From Methanolobus sp. (GTDB lineage Archaea; Halobacteriota; Methanosarcinia; Methanosarcinales; Methanosarcinaceae), in contig NZ_JADQBY010000013.1 of the NCBI RefSeq assembly GCF_016278385.1, positions 1 to 64,000 of the forward strand: a DNA stretch of 64,000 nucleotides, given 5' to 3'. The notes beneath the pieces were generated by a model. That model searched no databases and had not been told where the DNA came from. It saw only the letters and a program-made list of their open reading frames with translations. Positions 1,193 through 11,347 of the stretch are shown here, piece after piece; positions within the stretch are counted from its first letter, which is position 1, and each line of letters opens with the position of its first letter. Position numbers and translations under genes: made by a program.

Positions 1193-3643
1193 TCATCTAT
1201 GGAAGATTAAGTCACTATGGTCCAGCAGGTCATACAACCTCACCTTTATCAGGTCTGTGATAACAAAAGCCACCAGTGCATACAGCCACACGATACCTGC
1301 AAGTTTCCAGCCAATTGGCGATATATAGAAACCATAAACCACAACGAGAGTTGCCAGGAACTTTGTGCCTATTGTTGACCAGAACAGGATACCGCTTGGC
1401 CTGATAGACCAGAAAGGACCTCTTGTACGGGCAAGGAATATCGTCAGGTGTCCTGCAACTGCAAGCTTTAGGAATATAAAAGACTGCAATACACCCTGAC
1501 TGAGATTGAGGACATTCAACCCTATGTAAAAGATTGTAAAGGAAGAAATTACACCTATAATTCCCAGGAAAGTTGCCATACTCAAGACTTCCCTGATGTT
1601 CCACTTTTCCGGCATATTGGAATATTTCACATTATCATAGGCTATAGCCATGATAGGACCATCATTGAACAGTGCAAGTAACACTATCATGATGGCGGTC
1701 ACCGGATAGAAATTAAACGCAATGATAGAAACTGTGATGAAAAACAGGACTCTCACAGTCTCAGCTATTCGGTAAATGGAATAGCTCTTCATGCGCTGGA
1801 AAATTTTGCGACTCTCTTTGATGGCATCAATGATCACTGAAAGTCCCGGAGTTGTAAATACGATGTCTGCAGCAGACTTTGCGGCATCTGTAGCTCCGAA
1901 AACGGCAATTCCTGCATCAGCTTTCTTCAGAGCAGGAGCATCATTGACACCATCCCCGGTCATACCAACAATGTGCCCTTTTTTTTGGAGAAGCTCGACT
2001 ATTCTGTATTTATGTTCCGGAAACACCTGGGCAAAACCATCTGATCTTTCAATTAGATCCTGTGCCTGAAGATCAGTTTTGCCTTCAAGCTCCGGAGCAC
2101 TTATGATATTCGTACCCATATCTATCTGACTGGCAATCTCCTTTGCAATTGCAACGTGGTCACCAGTTATCATCTTAATATCAACGCCCATGGAATTAGC
2201 AGTCTTAATGGTCTGAGCTGAATCTTCATGAGGTGGATCATACAGACCAATGAGTCCTACAAAGCTGCATGTTCCATTATCCTCACACTTTGCCACACCC
2301 AGCGGACGATAACCTTTAACTGCAAGATCATTTACACTCTTTTCCACCTTCTCTGTTATCATTTTCTTATTTGTGGACATGTCAAGAATGACCTGCGGCG
2401 CTCCCTTGATAACCTTAAAGTGCATGCCTTCAGGACTTTCGACACTGGCCTCCGTATGTTTTATTACAGGATCGAAAGGCTTGAACTCTGTTATTTTATA
2501 GTCGTCCAGCTTTTTTGTTGAATCTTCCATGGAACTTATTTTTCTGAAGACAGCATTATCGATGGGATCATTATCCTCTTTCCTCGATGCAAAAGCACTG
2601 TAGATTAAGAGGTCTTCATCTGTAAAACCATCAAAAGGAATAAGCTCTGATAAAGTCAATTCGTTCTTTGTAATTGTACCTGTTTTATCTGAACACAATA
2701 TGTCCATACCTGCCATCTCTTCAATTGCCACGAGTTTACTGACAATCGCACCTTTTTTGGCAAGTTCGGTTGCGCCTACGGCCATAGATACTGACAGAAC
2801 AGCAGGTAGCGCAGCAGGTATTGCTGCAACCACCAGAACAAGAGCGAATTGAAGAGTATCCGGAAGACTTTCGTGCCTGAATATAGCAACCATGAAAACT
2901 ATGGCTACCAGTCCGGCAGCAAGGAATATCAGGTAATCTCCTATCTTTACGATTGCTTTCTGGAAATGACTCTGTGTCTTGACATCTGCAAGCAGTTCTG
3001 TGGTTTTACCAAAAAAGGTATTCATCCCGGTGGCAAATACTAACGCATTCATTTCACCTTTCTGAATAATGGATCCGGAATATGCAATATCTCCTAAAGC
3101 TTTGTCTACCGGAAGTGATTCTCCTGTCAGGGCGGATTCATCCACCTGAAGATAATCACCATCAATAAGTTTAACGTCAGCAGGAACAATATCTCCTGAA
3201 CGTAAGCGGACAATATCTCCGGGAACAAGTTCTCTGGAAGCCATTCCTTTCCAGTCTTCATCCCGTAATACTCTGGCCTGCAAAGCCATTTTCTTTTTTA
3301 GCAATTCAATGGCATTATCAGCCTTATTTTCCTGCCAGAACCCAACCACAGCATTAAGGAGCAACAATATTGAGATAATGATGAAATCTCCCCAGTGTTG
3401 TATGATTGCCGAAAGGATAGCAGCAATTTCAATCATCCAAGGAATAGGGGCCCAAAAATAACCGATGAATTTTTGAAACGGATTGGTCTTCTTTTCAATA
3501 AGCTCATTGTAGCCATATTTCTGAAGACGCTCACCAGCTTCAGCATCAGAGATGCCCCCTATGCTGGAATCTAGTTTTGTAAATAGCTCATCGATATTTA
3601 GCTCTTTTACATTTCCAATTGTGTGTGATGCAGGTTCTTCCAT
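1193..3643 (-). CDS. P-type H+-ATPase (plasma-membrane P3A type)
   Basis: The 816-residue protein is a cation-transporting P-type ATPase. Visible landmarks are the actuator loop motif TGES (about residue 173), the phosphorylation site CSDKTGTITKNE with Asp319, the nucleotide-domain KGAP motif, and the hinge GDGVNDAPALKKADAG. There are four N-terminal-side and about six C-terminal membrane segments. It lacks the N-terminal metal-binding CXXC domains and CPC motif of copper pumps, so it is not a CcoI/CopA-type ATPase. The overall pattern matches P3A proton pumps, known in yeast, plants and some methanogens. The start at 3643 (MEEPASH) was chosen because GGGAGA precedes it and the family begins there. 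It lies 22 bases downstream of the CcoP-like gene, so it is probably cotranscribed with the oxidase. Proton export is inferred from family, not shown. Confidence 0.88.
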   Translation of the reverse strand: MEEPASHTIGNVKELNIDELFTKLDSSIGGISDAEAGERLQKYGYNELIEKKTNPFQKFIGYFWAPIPWMIEIAAILSAIIQHWGDFIIISILLLLNAVVGFWQENKADNAIELLKKKMALQARVLRDEDWKGMASRELVPGDIVRLRSGDIVPADVKLIDGDYLQVDESALTGESLPVDKALGDIAYSGSIIQKGEMNALVFATGMNTFFGKTTELLADVKTQSHFQKAIVKIGDYLIFLAAGLVAIVFMVAIFRHESLPDTLQFALVLVVAAIPAALPAVLSVSMAVGATELAKKGAIVSKLVAIEEMAGMDILCSDKTGTITKNELTLSELIPFDGFTDEDLLIYSAFASRKEDNDPIDNAVFRKISSMEDSTKKLDDYKITEFKPFDPVIKHTEASVESPEGMHFKVIKGAPQVILDMSTNKKMITEKVEKSVNDLAVKGYRPLGVAKCEDNGTCSFVGLIGLYDPPHEDSAQTIKTANSMGVDIKMITGDHVAIAKEIASQIDMGTNIISAPELEGKTDLQAQDLIERSDGFAQVFPEHKYRIVELLQKKGHIVGMTGDGVNDAPALKKADAGIAVFGATDAAKSAADIVFTTPGLSVIIDAIKESRKIFQRMKSYSIYRIAETVRVLFFITVSIIAFNFYPVTAIMIVLLALFNDGPIMAIAYDNVKYSNMPEKWNIREVLSMATFLGIIGVISSFTIFYIGLNVLNLSQGVLQSFIFLKLAVAGHLTIFLARTRGPFWSIRPSGILFWSTIGTKFLATLVVVYGFYISPIGWKLAGIVWLYALVAFVITDLIKVRLYDLLDHSDLIFHR

Positions 3644-3665
3644 TTTGACTGTCTCCCATAAAAGG

Positions 3666-3947
3666 TTACATGGACATATTGCTAAACTCACCCCAATGAG
3701 CTGCAAAATATGCAATGGTCCAAACCAGCATTATAAAGTAAAGTACATAAAGGAAAGTTGTGATAGGACCATGAGATTCGGCAATTATTCCACCAAATTC
3801 CTCTGCATGGGAATTTGCATCTTTCAGAGAGTAGTGATCCTGGTTCTTTGCGCTCAGCCATACCAGTACCAAACTTGAGAGTACTATGAGAACGGTTATC
3901 CATACTAAAGAGTTCACATAGCTTGCATATTCCAAGGTGAAACTCAT
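3666..3947 (-). CDS. CcoP-like membrane subunit without heme domains
   Basis: The 93-residue protein has two predicted membrane segments (about residues 14-32 and 62-82) joined by a short polar loop reading AEEFGGIIAESHGPIT. In cbb3 oxidases the N-terminal domain of CcoP (FixP_N) also has an acidic EF-GI-E...P motif just before an aromatic LY.LY...W..AY helix, and this small protein shows that pattern. It has no CXXCH, so it would provide only the membrane anchor, while the two cytochrome c domains normally found on CcoP are fused to the main subunit upstream. Its ATG overlaps the ccoS stop by four bases (ATGA), indicating translational coupling. The CcoP relationship is pattern recognition; membrane topology and operon position are directly visible. 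Confidence 0.6.
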   Translation of the reverse strand: MSFTLEYASYVNSLVWITVLIVLSSLVLVWLSAKNQDHYSLKDANSHAEEFGGIIAESHGPITTFLYVLYFIMLVWTIAYFAAHWGEFSNMSM

Positions 3948-4135
3948 ATTTTCTCCCCCTGATGATTATTTGTTTCACTCCTATTTGACATTTCGTCAGG
4001 TATCTCCAGGATCCTGTATTTTGCTTCCTCGATATCTGTGAACTGTCCGGTTCTAATTCCCCATATCAGAAAACCAAGGAAAATAAGGAATAATGAAAAT
4101 GCTGTGATGAGCATTGCCAGATTATATTCATCCAT
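3944..4135 (-). CDS. ccoS: CcoS-like cbb3 oxidase assembly protein
   Basis: This 63-residue protein has one N-terminal membrane helix (about residues 7-28) followed by the sequence IRTGQFTDIEEAKYRIL. The CcoS/FixS family is defined by a single helix followed by a (V/I)RSGQFDDLEGPAYRIL-like block, so the match is close over the diagnostic region. In bacteria CcoS is needed for cofactor insertion into, and activity of, cbb3 oxidase. It starts only 4 bases after the stop of the large oxidase gene and overlaps the next gene. The hydrophilic C-terminal tail (SNRSETNNHQ) is unremarkable. Its presence is independent support for calling the upstream gene a cbb3-type enzyme rather than another heme-copper oxidase. 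Confidence 0.82.
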   Translation of the reverse strand: MDEYNLAMLITAFSLFLIFLGFLIWGIRTGQFTDIEEAKYRILEIPDEMSNRSETNNHQGEKI

Positions 4136-4139
4136 ATCA

Positions 4140-6995
4140 TCAGCTCCTCATATTTCTTGCATAGTTACTTTCGTACAATGGTCCCCATTTTGCATTGTAG
4201 TCATCCGGTGTGGCAAAGTGTTGGATGTAGAATATCGCCATGTACATCTCATCATCACTTAGAGAATACTTCCATGGAGGCATATTCGTAGTTTCCACGC
4301 CCTCCTTAACTTTCCAGACGTACTGTCCATAGTACTTGAAATCAGCACCTGATTCTGTGAAATTTGCAGGTTCCGGATCAATGTATCCTCCAGAGCTTAG
4401 AATAGAGGCAACACCATCTCCCTGTCCGCCCTCACCGTGACACTGTGCACAGTACAAGTTGAAAATCATCTGTCCCTTCTCGAACTGGTCCTGAGTACCT
4501 TCAATAGGCGGCACGATATGGGTCTGATTTGAAAAATTAATAGCTTCACCATCAGATACATCACCACTGACCGTCCTTATCGATCCTGTTGTAAAACTCA
4601 TTTCATAGAGATTTATCTTCCATATCTCAGTTTCATTGAGACTTAGTTTCCAGCTTGGCATTGCCGTACCTGGCACACCCTCGCTTACTCTCCAGAAATG
4701 ATATGAATCGCCTGTTTCAGGCATGTAGCTCATGATTCTTTCGTGAAGATTGGCGGGCTGGGTTACAACATGTCTTGCATATGGACCCTGGGCATTTCCT
4801 GAACAACCATGACATGCAAGACAACGTTCCGTGTAAGTTTTCTTACCTTCTTCAAAGATAGCTGCAAACTCTGCCCCTGTTTTTTCGTCTCCTGTATATG
4901 TCTGATTACTGGAATTATAATTCTGCATCGCAACAGACATAGAATCGGCAAATGGTTGCGTTTTATCTTGATACTCATAAGGTACTTCCGGATGGAAACT
5001 CATTACAGTAAGGTTATTTGTACCGAGGTTCTGGATATATGCAACCAGGGAATCCAATTGCGTATCTGAAAGGAATCCGAAAGGTGGCATAATGGAACTC
5101 GGACTGGTTGTTCTTGCATCCGTGTCATGAAGATAATGCCACTCAGTTGGTCTCATACCGCCTATCTGCGATAAATCCGGACCAGTACGTTCTGTTCCCA
5201 GAAGATGAGGAGAATCATAATAATAATCTCCCTGCTCAGATATTCTTCCAATAGCCCAGTCCTGAGGTCTTACAAATTGTGAATGACAGTAGAAACAGCC
5301 CATATCTGTGTATATTTCCCTTCCCTTTGCTTCTTCTATCGTATATGGATGAGCTATATCCGTGGCATTCACAGTATCAAGATTAAGTGCTGGCATGGCA
5401 ACGACCATCCAGGTCATGAGAAGGAAAAGAGCCAGACCACCCACCACTATAACAGGCATACTCATGGCATGCTGAGACCGTTTCTGCAACTTAGAATGTG
5501 GCCTTGAACTTTGTTCGGGAGATATACTGAAAATATCTTCTTCAACATGGGGTTCTTTTGAATGTGTAAAGGTCAGCAGTGTATTATATGCAAAGACATA
5601 CCCTGCCAGTACAACCATTCCTCCACCCATGGCTCTGGTAACATACCAGAACTGGAGGAGCTTTAATACAGGAGCAACAGTGATATTCTGGAACCAGGCT
5701 GAATTGGCGACCAGTCCTGCTATGGTCATGGATAGAAAAAAACTGGTAAAACCAATAAGTGCAAGCCACCAGCTGATACTCATAAGCCTGTCACTGTATA
5801 TTTTTGTCCGGGTTATTTTAGGTATCAGCCAGTACATCATTCCGATTGCTAGAAATCCGAATCCTCCGAGTATTGCCAGATGAGCATGTCCTACTGTCCA
5901 CTGGGAGAAGTGCAAGAATGAGTTTGTCCCCCTGAGTCCCTGAAGACTTCCCTGTACAGAAGTGAGAACGTAGAAAAAGAATCCTGTTACAATGAATCTG
6001 AATGGGATGTTCTCTGTAAAAATGTTCCATGAACCTCTGAGCGTCATTCCCAGATTTACTGCAAATGTAACTACAGGTACTAACATCAAAATACTCATAA
6101 CAACTGCAATAGTCTTCACCCATTCAGGGATTGCAGTTTGAAGTAAATGATGGCCTCCAACACCTGTATAGAAAAAAGCAATGGTGAAGAAACTGATCAC
6201 AGAAAGGAGATGACTGTACAGAGGCCTATTTATGATACGTGGGACCGCATAATACCATGTACCTATTCCAAGGGTGGTAAACCAGAGCCCCAGGACATTA
6301 TGGCCGTAGTACCAGTTAAATATAGAATCCGTAATTCCTACCAATGCTCCCGATGGAGGTCTCCACATGACATTACCGATGAAATAGACTATAGGGAACC
6401 AGATGAAAGTGCCTGTGTAGTACCAGGTTGATACATAGAGTTTTTTCTCGGTCCTTCGCCCAAAAGTCGACAATATATTGTACAATATCATCAACAATGT
6501 CACCATAATCAGAACATCAATTGACCATGGAAGTTCTGCATATTCCCTTCCCTGAGTATTTCCAAGAAACAGGATCATTGCTATACCAGTCAAAAGAGCA
6601 AGATTCCATAAAATCGCAGAAAGTTTTGTAAGTCTGGCACTATAAATGGGAGTATTGACCAGCCTCGGAATGGCCCAGAACATCCCGCCTATCAGACCAG
6701 ATGAAACAAAACCAAAAAGTACACCGTTAACATGAGCAGGCCTTATTCTGCCAAAGGTCAAAAAAGCTGCGTCGCCTAAAAAATACGGCTGGAAGAACTT
6801 AATTGCCAGTATGAACCCAAGTGTGGCAAATATCGGGAACCATATAAGTGATCCCAAAAACCAGTATTTTACAGCATCGTCGCCTTCGAGGAACTTATCC
6901 TTGGCAAGCTCGTTTCTGTTATCATTATCTTTTATTTCAGTTCCATCTTGAGCAGATAATTCGCCTTCTACTCCCCCACCGTCGTTAAATTCCAT
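4140..6995 (-). CDS. ccoNO: cbb3-type cytochrome c oxidase, CcoN-CcoO-CcoP heme domains fused in one chain
   Basis: The 951-residue membrane protein would reduce O2 to water. Residues 40-475 form a CcoN-type core with about 12 helices. His88 (RPAHVNG) and His372 fit the low-spin heme b ligands, His370 (VGHAH) the heme b3 ligand, and His232 (YYGHN), His282 and His283 (GGHHLL) the CuB ligands. Tyr276 is 44 residues after His232 and 6 before His282, as in the cross-linked Tyr of Pseudomonas cbb3. After a helix at 511-534 comes a CcoO-like domain with C567-C570-H571 (CFYCHSQFVRPQ) and Met636. Two more cytochrome c domains follow (C725-C728-H729 with Met779; C849-C852-H853 with Met905), equal to the usual CcoP heme complement. 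An AGGAGGT site lies 8 bases before the ATG. Normal enzymes have three separate subunits. A cbb3 oxidase is not something I know from methanogens. Confidence 0.95.
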   Translation of the reverse strand: MEFNDGGGVEGELSAQDGTEIKDNDNRNELAKDKFLEGDDAVKYWFLGSLIWFPIFATLGFILAIKFFQPYFLGDAAFLTFGRIRPAHVNGVLFGFVSSGLIGGMFWAIPRLVNTPIYSARLTKLSAILWNLALLTGIAMILFLGNTQGREYAELPWSIDVLIMVTLLMILYNILSTFGRRTEKKLYVSTWYYTGTFIWFPIVYFIGNVMWRPPSGALVGITDSIFNWYYGHNVLGLWFTTLGIGTWYYAVPRIINRPLYSHLLSVISFFTIAFFYTGVGGHHLLQTAIPEWVKTIAVVMSILMLVPVVTFAVNLGMTLRGSWNIFTENIPFRFIVTGFFFYVLTSVQGSLQGLRGTNSFLHFSQWTVGHAHLAILGGFGFLAIGMMYWLIPKITRTKIYSDRLMSISWWLALIGFTSFFLSMTIAGLVANSAWFQNITVAPVLKLLQFWYVTRAMGGGMVVLAGYVFAYNTLLTFTHSKEPHVEEDIFSISPEQSSRPHSKLQKRSQHAMSMPVIVVGGLALFLLMTWMVVAMPALNLDTVNATDIAHPYTIEEAKGREIYTDMGCFYCHSQFVRPQDWAIGRISEQGDYYYDSPHLLGTERTGPDLSQIGGMRPTEWHYLHDTDARTTSPSSIMPPFGFLSDTQLDSLVAYIQNLGTNNLTVMSFHPEVPYEYQDKTQPFADSMSVAMQNYNSSNQTYTGDEKTGAEFAAIFEEGKKTYTERCLACHGCSGNAQGPYARHVVTQPANLHERIMSYMPETGDSYHFWRVSEGVPGTAMPSWKLSLNETEIWKINLYEMSFTTGSIRTVSGDVSDGEAINFSNQTHIVPPIEGTQDQFEKGQMIFNLYCAQCHGEGGQGDGVASILSSGGYIDPEPANFTESGADFKYYGQYVWKVKEGVETTNMPPWKYSLSDDEMYMAIFYIQHFATPDDYNAKWGPLYESNYARNMRS

Positions 6996-7003
6996 AATAT
7001 ACG

Positions 7004-7010
7004 ACCTCCT
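7004..7010 (-). promoter_or_regulatory. Strong ribosome binding site of the oxidase gene
   Basis: AGGAGGT (reverse complement of acctcct) lies 8 bases upstream of the ATG at 6995 and is complementary to the anti-Shine-Dalgarno end of 16S rRNA. It fixes the start of the 951-residue protein and suggests efficient translation. Confidence 0.85.
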
Positions 7011-7090
7011 TCAAGGAAAACATTGAGTGGATTTGAAGCATAAAAGGTTCCCCAACCTTTACTTCTCAATAACAAAGGGAAGTGATTACT

Positions 7091-7100
7091 ATTTAATTAT
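7091..7100 (-). promoter_or_regulatory. Possible TATA box of the oxidase operon
   Basis: On the minus strand this reads ATAATTAAAT, an AT-rich box that would place transcription start near 7065-7072 and give a leader of about 70 bases before the oxidase ATG. It lies immediately downstream (in the direction of transcription) of the TGTACAA dyad. No transcript data are available, so this is a position-based guess. Confidence 0.35.
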
Positions 7101-7109
7101 GTCTATAAC

Positions 7110-7140
7110 TGTACAACTTTTCATGTTTCATCATTGTACA
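7110..7140. promoter_or_regulatory. TGTACAA...TTGTACA dyad, candidate operator
   Basis: TGTACAA at 7110-7116 and its reverse complement TTGTACA at 7134-7140 form a 31-base inverted repeat with a 17-base spacer. It sits between the divergent oxidase operon and cytochrome gene, directly upstream of the likely oxidase TATA box. A dimeric regulator controlling both units could bind here. No known consensus is recognised. Confidence 0.4.
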
Positions 7141-7200
7141 AATTATATTAGATAAATAAGTCTGGATATTTTAAGACCTACCCCTTATTCCAGGGTCAAA

Positions 7201-7212
7201 AGTATTTAAATA
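7201..7212 (+). promoter_or_regulatory. Possible TATA box of the cytochrome c gene
   Basis: The sequence around 7201 reads agtatttaaatac, a good archaeal TATA-like box. A start of transcription about 25 bases downstream would leave a short leader of roughly 20-25 bases before the ATG at 7256, including the ggggtga ribosome binding site. Confidence 0.45.
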
Positions 7213-7255
7213 CCCAACAACTAAGTTATTATTAACTGGAAAATGGGGTGAATAT

Positions 7256-7795
7256 ATGAAATATAAATTAATTCTTGTATTGTTCTTAGCAGCGATAATG
7301 TTGACAGTGGCACCTATGGCATCAGCAAAATCAAGTTTTATGAGTTCTTTCAACAATTACTATGATACCGGAGACACCAGGCTTGATTCATGTGCAATCT
7401 GTCACTCAGGTCCGAATGGTGGTTCTTTGAATTCTTATGGAAGAGCATATGGGGGAAATTATGCGTCAATTGAAGATCGTGATTCAGATGGTGATGGATT
7501 CAGCAACCTGGATGAGATAAATGCCCTGACTTTCCCGGGTAATGCCAATGATTTCCCCGAAATTGCAGCTGAACCTGTAGTTGAGGCTATACCTGAACTC
7601 ATATCTGAAACACCAGTCGAAGAAACAGTAGACGATCAAAACATGGAAGAGCCAATTGTTGATGAAACTCAGGAAGAAACAACAATTGAAGAGCAAAGTG
7701 ACGAAGCAACAACTGAAGAGCAATCTCCAGGGTTTGAAGTTATTCTTGCAATTGCCGGAATTTTTTCAGTAGCATATCTGAAAAGACGGGTATGA
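7256..7795 (+). CDS. Secreted monoheme cytochrome c with EF-hand-like motif and PGF-CTERM anchor
   Basis: The 179-residue protein has an N-terminal signal peptide (about residues 1-24, ending near ASAKS) and one heme c site, CAICHSG, at about residue 46. A calcium-binding DSDGDGFSNLDE motif follows near residue 80, a combination common in small bacterial cytochrome-like proteins. Residues 105-155 are a Glu/Thr-rich low-complexity stalk. The end reads SPGF, a hydrophobic stretch, then LKRRV, which fits the PGF-CTERM signal recognised by archaeosortase A. The mature protein should therefore be lipid-anchored on the outer membrane face. It is transcribed divergently from the cbb3 oxidase, so it is a plausible electron donor to that enzyme. 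The donor role is inference; the heme site and sorting signal are visible. Confidence 0.85.
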   Translation: MKYKLILVLFLAAIMLTVAPMASAKSSFMSSFNNYYDTGDTRLDSCAICHSGPNGGSLNSYGRAYGGNYASIEDRDSDGDGFSNLDEINALTFPGNANDFPEIAAEPVVEAIPELISETPVEETVDDQNMEEPIVDETQEETTIEEQSDEATTEEQSPGFEVILAIAGIFSVAYLKRRV

Positions 7796-10488: not shown

Positions 10489-10708
10489 ATAAAATATTCA
10501 GATCGATTGATAATTCCTTACTTTCCTCGTTTTCTTTATGGGAGAATTCAGAGCAAATAGTCAATCAATCACAGGATTATATTTTAGGCTTTAATTGTCT
10601 CATCTATGATTTTCAGGAAACAATTTTACGATAGAATGGACAAATGATCAAATCGATTTGCAAAAACTACAAATTCAATGTAAACGAATTTATTCATGGA
10701 GAGTATCA

Positions 10709-11347
10709 ATGGATAATGACAATAAACCTGTGATCAAGGTTTCAAAAAATGGACCACTCATTGTGAAAAATCTAAAAACGCTTAGAAATTCAAAGAGTGC
10801 TTTCATTGAAACTCGTCCTACTATGACACTGTGCAGATGTGGAGAATCCGAAAAAAAGCCATTCTGTGATGGAGTGCATCTGAAGAATGGATTCTCAGGG
10901 GAGAAAAAAGATGACCGTATTCCTGATAAAGTAGACAGCTACGAAGGAAAGCAAATCACCATCCATAATAATAAGGGAGTATGTTCACATATTGGCAACT
11001 GTGTCTTCAATTTACCTTCAGTATTTAGAAAAGGAATGACACCCTGGATCGATCCTGATGGTGCAGACCCGGAAGAAATAATAAAAATCATCAAAACCTG
11101 TCCTTCAGGTGCATTGAGTTATACCGTTAACGGAGAATTTCATAAGGAATATCCTCATGAACCGGAGGTCTTCATCATAAGGAATGGACCTTACAATGTT
11201 ATTGGTGGAATAAAATTCGATGATTCGGATGGTTCAAAGCCTGAAACAGAGGACCATTATGCTCTGTGCAGATGTGGTGCTTCCAAAAACAAACCGTTCT
11301 GTGATGGTACCCATCTATTTATTGAATTCAAAGACAGGAAAAACTAA
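10709..11347 (+). CDS. Double-CDGSH iron-sulfur protein with a central ferredoxin-like module
   Basis: The 212-residue protein has two CDGSH [2Fe-2S] motifs: C42-C44-C53-H57 (CRCGESEKKPFCDGVH) and C187-C189-C198-H202. Between them is a divergent ferredoxin-like domain with C92, C98 (CSHIGNC) and C131 in TCPSGAL, as in Fer4_19 proteins that are often fused to CDGSH. Such proteins bind redox-active Fe-S clusters and are thought to act in electron transfer or cluster handling; no specific substrate is known. There is no membrane segment. The start at 10709 is chosen because GGAGAG lies five bases before that ATG, whereas the upstream in-frame codon has no such site. The gene stands alone between a kinase and a small Trm112-like gene. 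Confidence 0.88.
   Translation: MDNDNKPVIKVSKNGPLIVKNLKTLRNSKSAFIETRPTMTLCRCGESEKKPFCDGVHLKNGFSGEKKDDRIPDKVDSYEGKQITIHNNKGVCSHIGNCVFNLPSVFRKGMTPWIDPDGADPEEIIKIIKTCPSGALSYTVNGEFHKEYPHEPEVFIIRNGPYNVIGGIKFDDSDGSKPETEDHYALCRCGASKNKPFCDGTHLFIEFKDRKN

Follow-up and report, generated by a model that had tools for sequence, protein, structure and literature searches.

Small cytochromes that end in a PGF-CTERM tail are described in ANME archaea, where they are proposed to be lipid-linked and to carry electrons outside the cell (available text of PMC9012536). In the acidic protein Kustd1711, calcium near heme c tunes the potential (PMC11791136, available portion). The accessible part of a survey of archaeal cytochromes c places CcmH homologs only in Ferroglobus placidus (PMC4429474), and losses of Ccm are described for Methanosarcina and Methanolobus in the accessible part of PMC9084895. 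The available portions of these four papers and of PMC5244752, PMC8470020, and PMC8280799 hold no account of the heme protein or of the Methanolobus oxidase described here. A literature search on temptin and heme and on the GEGP/diheme family, with most subscription journals outside its reach, likewise returned no account of the heme protein.

The window, a stretch of 64,000 nucleotides from Methanolobus sp. (genome G000), encodes a small, probably surface-anchored protein that stands divergently beside an oxidase. Its features are the following:

7256..7795, + strand: heme protein, an ArtA-type (PGF-CTERM) surface protein of 179 aa with a single CXXCH and an EF-hand-like loop
7319..7564, + strand: its putative heme/calcium domain, with C46, C49, H50, D76, D78, and D80
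7727..7792, + strand: its PGF-CTERM sorting signal, scored with PF18204 and TIGR04126

The N-terminus is signal-like, the single CXXCH reads CAICH, and the putative calcium loop is DSDGDG (DSDGDGFSNLDE). The acidic linker that leads to the C-terminal PGF-CTERM tail (SPGFEVILAIAGIFSVAYLKRRV) has 54 residues, 20 of them D/E and none K/R; the tail includes a membrane helix and closes with the basic end KRR. PF18204 matches this tail with 33.4 bits (cut-off 18.8), and TIGR04126 scores 23.0 bits, slightly below its cut-off of 24.5. The genome contains archaeosortase A (ArtA; 269.9 bits, cut-off 75), CcmB, CcmF-type and CcmC-type genes, and mcrA. The original prediction had listed a CXXCH, a DSDGDG motif, an acidic stalk, and a PGF-CTERM tail in one small protein, and all four are confirmed in the open reading frame. 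It had also proposed anchoring by archaeosortase, which the tail match and the ArtA gene support; the ArtA and Ccm genes that it named for a search elsewhere in the genome are there (ArtA, CcmB, CcmC, and CcmF), so that their absence cannot be held against it. The heme protein is probably fastened to the outer cell surface.

An alignment of 60 homologues shows no variation at either Cys or at D76, S77, D78, D80, and P94. Because the two Cys and three Asp are invariant and the His of the CXXCH is kept in 58 of the 60 members, we do not regard the motifs as products of chance. The other two members, in G405 (L095:3255-3773) and G439 (L096:3071-3517), retain both Cys and read CXXCM. No second His or Met that could serve as distal heme ligand is conserved across the 60 aligned sequences, which makes the heme protein unlike an ordinary low-spin electron carrier. 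Pfam comparisons of 59 members at E ≤ 0.01 returned no cytochrome family for any of them; the matches are to Temptin_C (PF24784; 38 members), PGF-CTERM (31), and TSP3_bac (16). Temptin is a mollusc pheromone protein. For the heme protein of the window, PGF-CTERM is the sole Pfam match at E ≤ 0.01, and Temptin_C does not match it even at E ≤ 1. NF041762 (GEGP motif-containing diheme protein) scores 58.1 bits over the heme/calcium region, a partial match with a cut-off of 300. A confident structure model of the 82-residue heme/calcium domain (pLDDT 92.6, pTM 0.82) gave no Foldseek match of any kind in the PDB, to cytochrome folds or to others. EF-hand proteins in the PDB match the heme protein weakly and in the calcium loop only (best E 0.017), and Kustd1711 is not among these matches.

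The protein is a member of a wider archaeal family with a Temptin_C-like domain, and by its ligands and family matches this domain is no classical cytochrome c. Of the earlier label “cytochrome c”, heme c likely stands; a classical cytochrome c is not supported, given the missing distal ligand and the missing cytochrome family match. In G420, the domain is N-terminal in proteins of 330 and 645 aa (L093:7241-8233 and L094:5891-7828), one of which has a long TP-rich stretch and the other repeated domains.

The same comparisons bear on a reading without heme, which we consider clearly improbable: the CXXC would form a disulfide in a calcium-stabilised surface module of the temptin or TSP3 kind, acting in adhesion or signalling, and the His would be incidental. 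This would fit a family that matches Temptin_C in 38 of 59 cases and cytochrome families in none, the lack of a cytochrome fold match in the PDB, and a Cys pair that is invariant whereas the His is Met in two of 60 members. Against it stand the retention of the His in the other 58 and the partial match to NF041762, an NCBI family named for a diheme protein. It is further opposed by a strong co-occurrence with Ccm genes in three samples and by linkage to ccmH-ccmF.

Among 111 Methanosarcinaceae genomes, CcmB is present in 28 of 29 carriers of the heme protein vs 49 of 82 non-carriers (p = 1e-4), where presence means a strong match (77 of 111 genomes) and nine genomes with weak matches count as lacking CcmB. 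The sole carrier without CcmB, G110, is an 83% complete genome. In genus g13, a subset of the same 111 genomes, CcmB is present in 10 of 30 genomes, and these include all four carriers (p = 0.008). Both p-values overstate the evidence, as gene presence is shared by kinship; linkage in operons is independent of them. A strong CcmF (E ≤ 1e-40) occurs in 18 of the 59 genomes in the class of G138; all 13 carriers belong to these 18, and none to the other 41. Within this class, 10 of the 11 genomes of f9, an Archaeoglobi-type family, have ccmH-ccmF immediately downstream of the family gene; CcmH and CcmF were identified by scoring the genes of G147, and the other f9 genomes were assigned by similarity. 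In those f9 loci that were read (among L097-L099 and L104-L110), a second ccmH-like gene follows ccmH-ccmF. The marks of a c-type protein were found together here, namely a CXXCH kept in 58 of 60 members, in an exported protein, in a Ccm-bearing genome (CcmB/C/F). Because the family tracks Ccm genes and sits upstream of ccmH-ccmF in f9, attachment of heme c is likely, and the heme protein of the window likely carries it covalently. The Temptin_C matches, the lack of a conserved distal ligand, and the two CXXCM members count against heme.

The neighbouring operon is organized as follows:

6996..7255: divergent intergenic region between oxidase and heme protein, alignable in the oxidase-deleted G042
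4140..6995, − strand: putative fused CcoN-CcoO-cytochrome c-cytochrome c oxidase, 951 aa, with three CXXCH
3944..4135, − strand: CcoS/FixS-like assembly protein, 63 aa
3669..3947, − strand: 93-aa membrane protein of the oxidase operon, of no known family, whose C-terminal half survives in the G042 scar
1193..3715, − strand: plasma-membrane proton-efflux P-type ATPase (TIGR01647, 1083 bits)
3829..6944: segment absent in G042 (deletion scar), 3.1 kb, covering the oxidase almost completely, together with the CcoS-like gene and the N-terminal portion of the 93-aa gene

The oxidase contains a COX1 domain, a FixO domain (PF02433, 116.8 bits), and further cytochrome c domains; a separate CcoP is absent, and the single chain carries two more cytochrome c domains in its place. 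Its closest solved relative is the cbb3 CcoN 3mk7 (2.5e-66), with NorB at 1.6e-9. Alignment with 3mk7 showed conservation of H88, H232, H282, H283, H370, H372, and Y276, which we take to be the heme, CuB, and active-site residues of cbb3 enzymes; Gln stands at the position corresponding to cbb3 Glu323. The CcoS identity in the window rests on the scoring of its ortholog in G061 (L052:11027-11221; PF03597 42.4 bits, TIGR00847 32.0 bits, both above cut-off). Judged by its sequence, the neighbour is a C-family (cbb3-type) oxidase, a kind rarely found in methanogens, and the oxidase that had been predicted is real; that its c-heme domains face outward, as had also been claimed, is supported by homology. 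A literature search, most subscription journals being outside its reach, returned no account of such an oxidase in Methanolobus or in methanogens.

The listed TTG start of the ATPase overlaps the preceding gene, and an internal ATG near 3643 is the likelier start, given the length of relatives. P-type ATPases beside other family members were considered as the same enzyme, which was rejected, as the cluster lumped H+, heavy-metal, and other ATPases. A shared operator in the divergent region was rejected as well: a pair of TGTACA sites at 7110 and 7135 (window 7110-7140), 25 bp apart, is kept in G042 and does not occur upstream of the other oxidases and heme proteins examined.

It is very improbable, in our judgement, that the neighbouring enzyme reduces NO instead of O2, with the heme protein belonging to NO detoxification. 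A CbbQ/NirQ/NorQ ATPase and a VWA protein nearby in G046, G061, and G062 (the G061 VWA protein was assigned only by its position and N-terminal similarity) are what such a reading would draw on, but these genes are still present in two genomes without the oxidase, G043 and G057. The far stronger match to cbb3 CcoN than to NorB, the aligned cbb3 active-site Tyr (Y276), and the CcoS gene also speak against it. Near the oxidase or its empty site, the CbbQ/NorQ ATPase and the large VWA protein are found at L053:1835-6172, L033:13099-17436, L119, and L120.

The original prediction paired the heme protein with the oxidase and set co-occurrence in relatives as a test. Among the 111 Methanosarcinaceae genomes, which include 27 of genus g1 (the genus of G000, taken to be Methanolobus), the oxidase is present in five, and all five also carry the heme protein, as had been expected (family-wide p = 9e-4, kinship ignored). 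At E ≤ 1e-30, the same five are the only oxidase genomes among 392 of the phylum. Intact heme proteins with CXXCH occur in at least 29 of the 111 genomes and at least 19 of the 27 in g1; 29 is a lower bound, as weak matches (e.g., G006, G022, G051, G077, G099, G101, and G103) were not counted. Of these, G077 and G103 have matches across the motif position, with E 3e-6 or weaker, and G051 has three stops; the broken copy in G005 was also left out. Within g1, the heme protein is found in four of four oxidase genomes vs 15 of 23 others, which is not significant (p = 0.29), and 24 of the 29 counted carriers have no oxidase. On this distribution, at least 29 vs five of 111 genomes, a dedicated cytochrome-oxidase pair was rejected. 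The two genes are adjacent in only two of the five oxidase genomes (G000 and G046), and the original interpretation is supported in part.

The oxidase is 88-89% identical to the window copy within the genus and 84% in G065, and PyrG, the one gene used for comparison, is 92-93% and 80% identical. Because the two sets of identities resemble each other, long residence and losses fit better than recent acquisition. In the ANME-2 MAG B4-08 (L077:5998-8808), a fused oxidase of 69% identity occurs with a 92-aa relative of the 93-aa gene, and no heme protein was found at that locus. A plasmid search gave no match for the heme protein; for the oxidase it returned 618 records, all below 60% identity and about 30% among the matches listed.

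Gene order records such a loss. In G042, a one-contig genome that has no oxidase, the flanking DNA aligns with the window at about 80-86%, and the 3.1-kb segment is missing. A scar ORF of 91 aa (L032:7567-7842) joins the first residues of the oxidase in frame with the end of the 93-aa protein, and the heme protein adjoins this scar. This scar shows at least one loss of the oxidase within the genus. Because G042 keeps the scar where the oxidase stood, the adjacency of heme protein and oxidase is older than this loss. The full-length heme proteins of G000, G046, and G042 group together in a tree, with modest support (84/83). The 93-aa gene was found in seven of the 111 genomes, namely the five oxidase genomes, G042 with its scar, and G033, which has a 50% relative.

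Shorter paralogues extend this picture. The order in G046 is ATPase, 93-aa gene, CcoS, oxidase, long heme protein, short heme protein, CbbQ ATPase, and VWA protein. In G043, the short paralogue has c41 on one side and the c216-c215-c214-c26 genes on the other; in G042, it lies beside c41-c42. In G061 and G062, the c41-c42 genes border the oxidase operon, and in G061 this operon stands between the same genes that surround the short paralogue in G043 and G042. On more than one occasion, a member of the heme-protein family has stood beside the oxidase, but most carriers have no oxidase.

Other loci show different company. The full-length heme protein of G061 and G062 is encoded away from the oxidase; in both genomes a CDGSH iron-sulfur gene starts 4 bp after a paralogue, which suggests a different partner for the paralogue there. 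A CDGSH/4Fe-4S gene follows a family member after 3-4 bp in G039, G060, G061, and G062, a second link of the family, to iron-sulfur chemistry; the CDGSH-linked loci are L034:8716-9907, L035:9416-10592, L038:7425-8646, and L050:6753-7925, and the window itself encodes a relative of these CDGSH genes at 10658-11347. G065 has two copies of the heme protein, neither near the oxidase, and in G081 a family member lies beside a NiFe-hydrogenase operon. FilR1-like regulator genes (cluster c1) are abundant near the genes of the family, with 23 in 11 loci (L034, L035, L036, L038, and others).

These settings lend weight to a reading that we consider a serious possibility, if one that falls short of an even chance: the protein would be heme-bearing and ArtA-anchored and no donor to the oxidase, acting alone at the surface in redox chemistry, sensing, or extracellular electron transfer, with a single His as heme ligand and the heme site perhaps open. 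That the gene stands next to the oxidase would then be a by-product of a redox-stress neighbourhood common to both. The excess of carriers over oxidase genomes, the lack of a conserved distal ligand, the CDGSH/4Fe-4S genes, the ccm operons of f9, and the hydrogenase neighbour in G081 all agree with this. It is countered by the place of the gene next to the oxidase in G000 and G046 and, via the scar, in G042, by the short paralogue at the oxidase locus, and by the heme protein in five of five oxidase genomes.

The reading that we favour, tentatively and at only a little under an even chance, is an ArtA-anchored, single-heme, calcium-binding general surface redox protein that is used with the oxidase where one is present and is not dedicated to it. 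The heme protein would be exported and then receive one heme c at its CXXCH from the Ccm machinery, calcium would bind in the DxDxDG loop, and archaeosortase A would cut the protein and anchor it to lipid. The result would be a small heme/calcium domain held outside the membrane by a flexible acidic stalk. In this lineage, the protein and a shorter paralogue stood beside the fused cbb3-type O2 reductase, and where the oxidase is present, electrons would most likely pass from the heme protein to its outward c-heme domains. Retained MP motifs (MPPF, MPSW, and MPPW), read in the sequences of the c domains within the oxidase, make such a transfer plausible. Against the favoured reading stand the missing distal ligand, the two CXXCM members, the carriers that have no oxidase, the full-length copies away from it in G061, G062, and G065, and the result that no bc-type cytochrome b scored above cut-off in the six genomes searched. 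A bolder version, which we hold to be unlikely, is a temptin-like new cytochrome with a His-ligated heme c beside an EF-hand calcium site, in which outside calcium would set the potential or open a free coordination site; tethered by archaeosortase, it would be used by some methanogens as an outside donor to an O2 reductase that their lineage is losing.

Genes on contig C7 of the oxidase-bearing G062 are 100% identical to those of a contig of Methanolobus vulcani PL 12/M (L078), and this cultured methanogen has a complete fused cbb3-type oxidase. The strain allows direct tests of whether a methanogen reduces O2 and of what the tethered heme protein does. The oxidase in a cultured methanogen is a surprise, as is a ccm-linked, temptin-like heme domain, in a family that has no classical cytochrome family match and is tied to ccm genes in Archaeoglobi-type genomes; the step from heme protein to oxidase is one that we infer.

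Compared with known systems, the oxidase resembles the cbb3 (C-family) O2 reductase 3mk7 in its CcoN ligands and Tyr, its CcoO domain, and its CcoS gene. It differs in that CcoN, CcoO, and two more c domains form one 951-aa chain, and in its methanogen host. The heme protein is related to Temptin_C (PF24784) through its family, most members of which match that domain, whereas the window protein does not. It is akin to the NF041762 diheme protein in the heme/calcium region, far below the cut-off, and has one heme site, not two. With Kustd1711 it shares an acidic character and would share a calcium ion close to heme c; Kustd1711, however, has a classical cytochrome c fold and binds calcium via backbone and propionate (PMC11791136, available portion). 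With the ANME PGF-CTERM cytochromes it shares the CXXCH and the archaeosortase tail, but those proteins are multiheme, as the available text of PMC9012536 has it, whereas the window protein has a single predicted heme site, an EF-hand-like loop, and the domain of a Temptin_C-like family.
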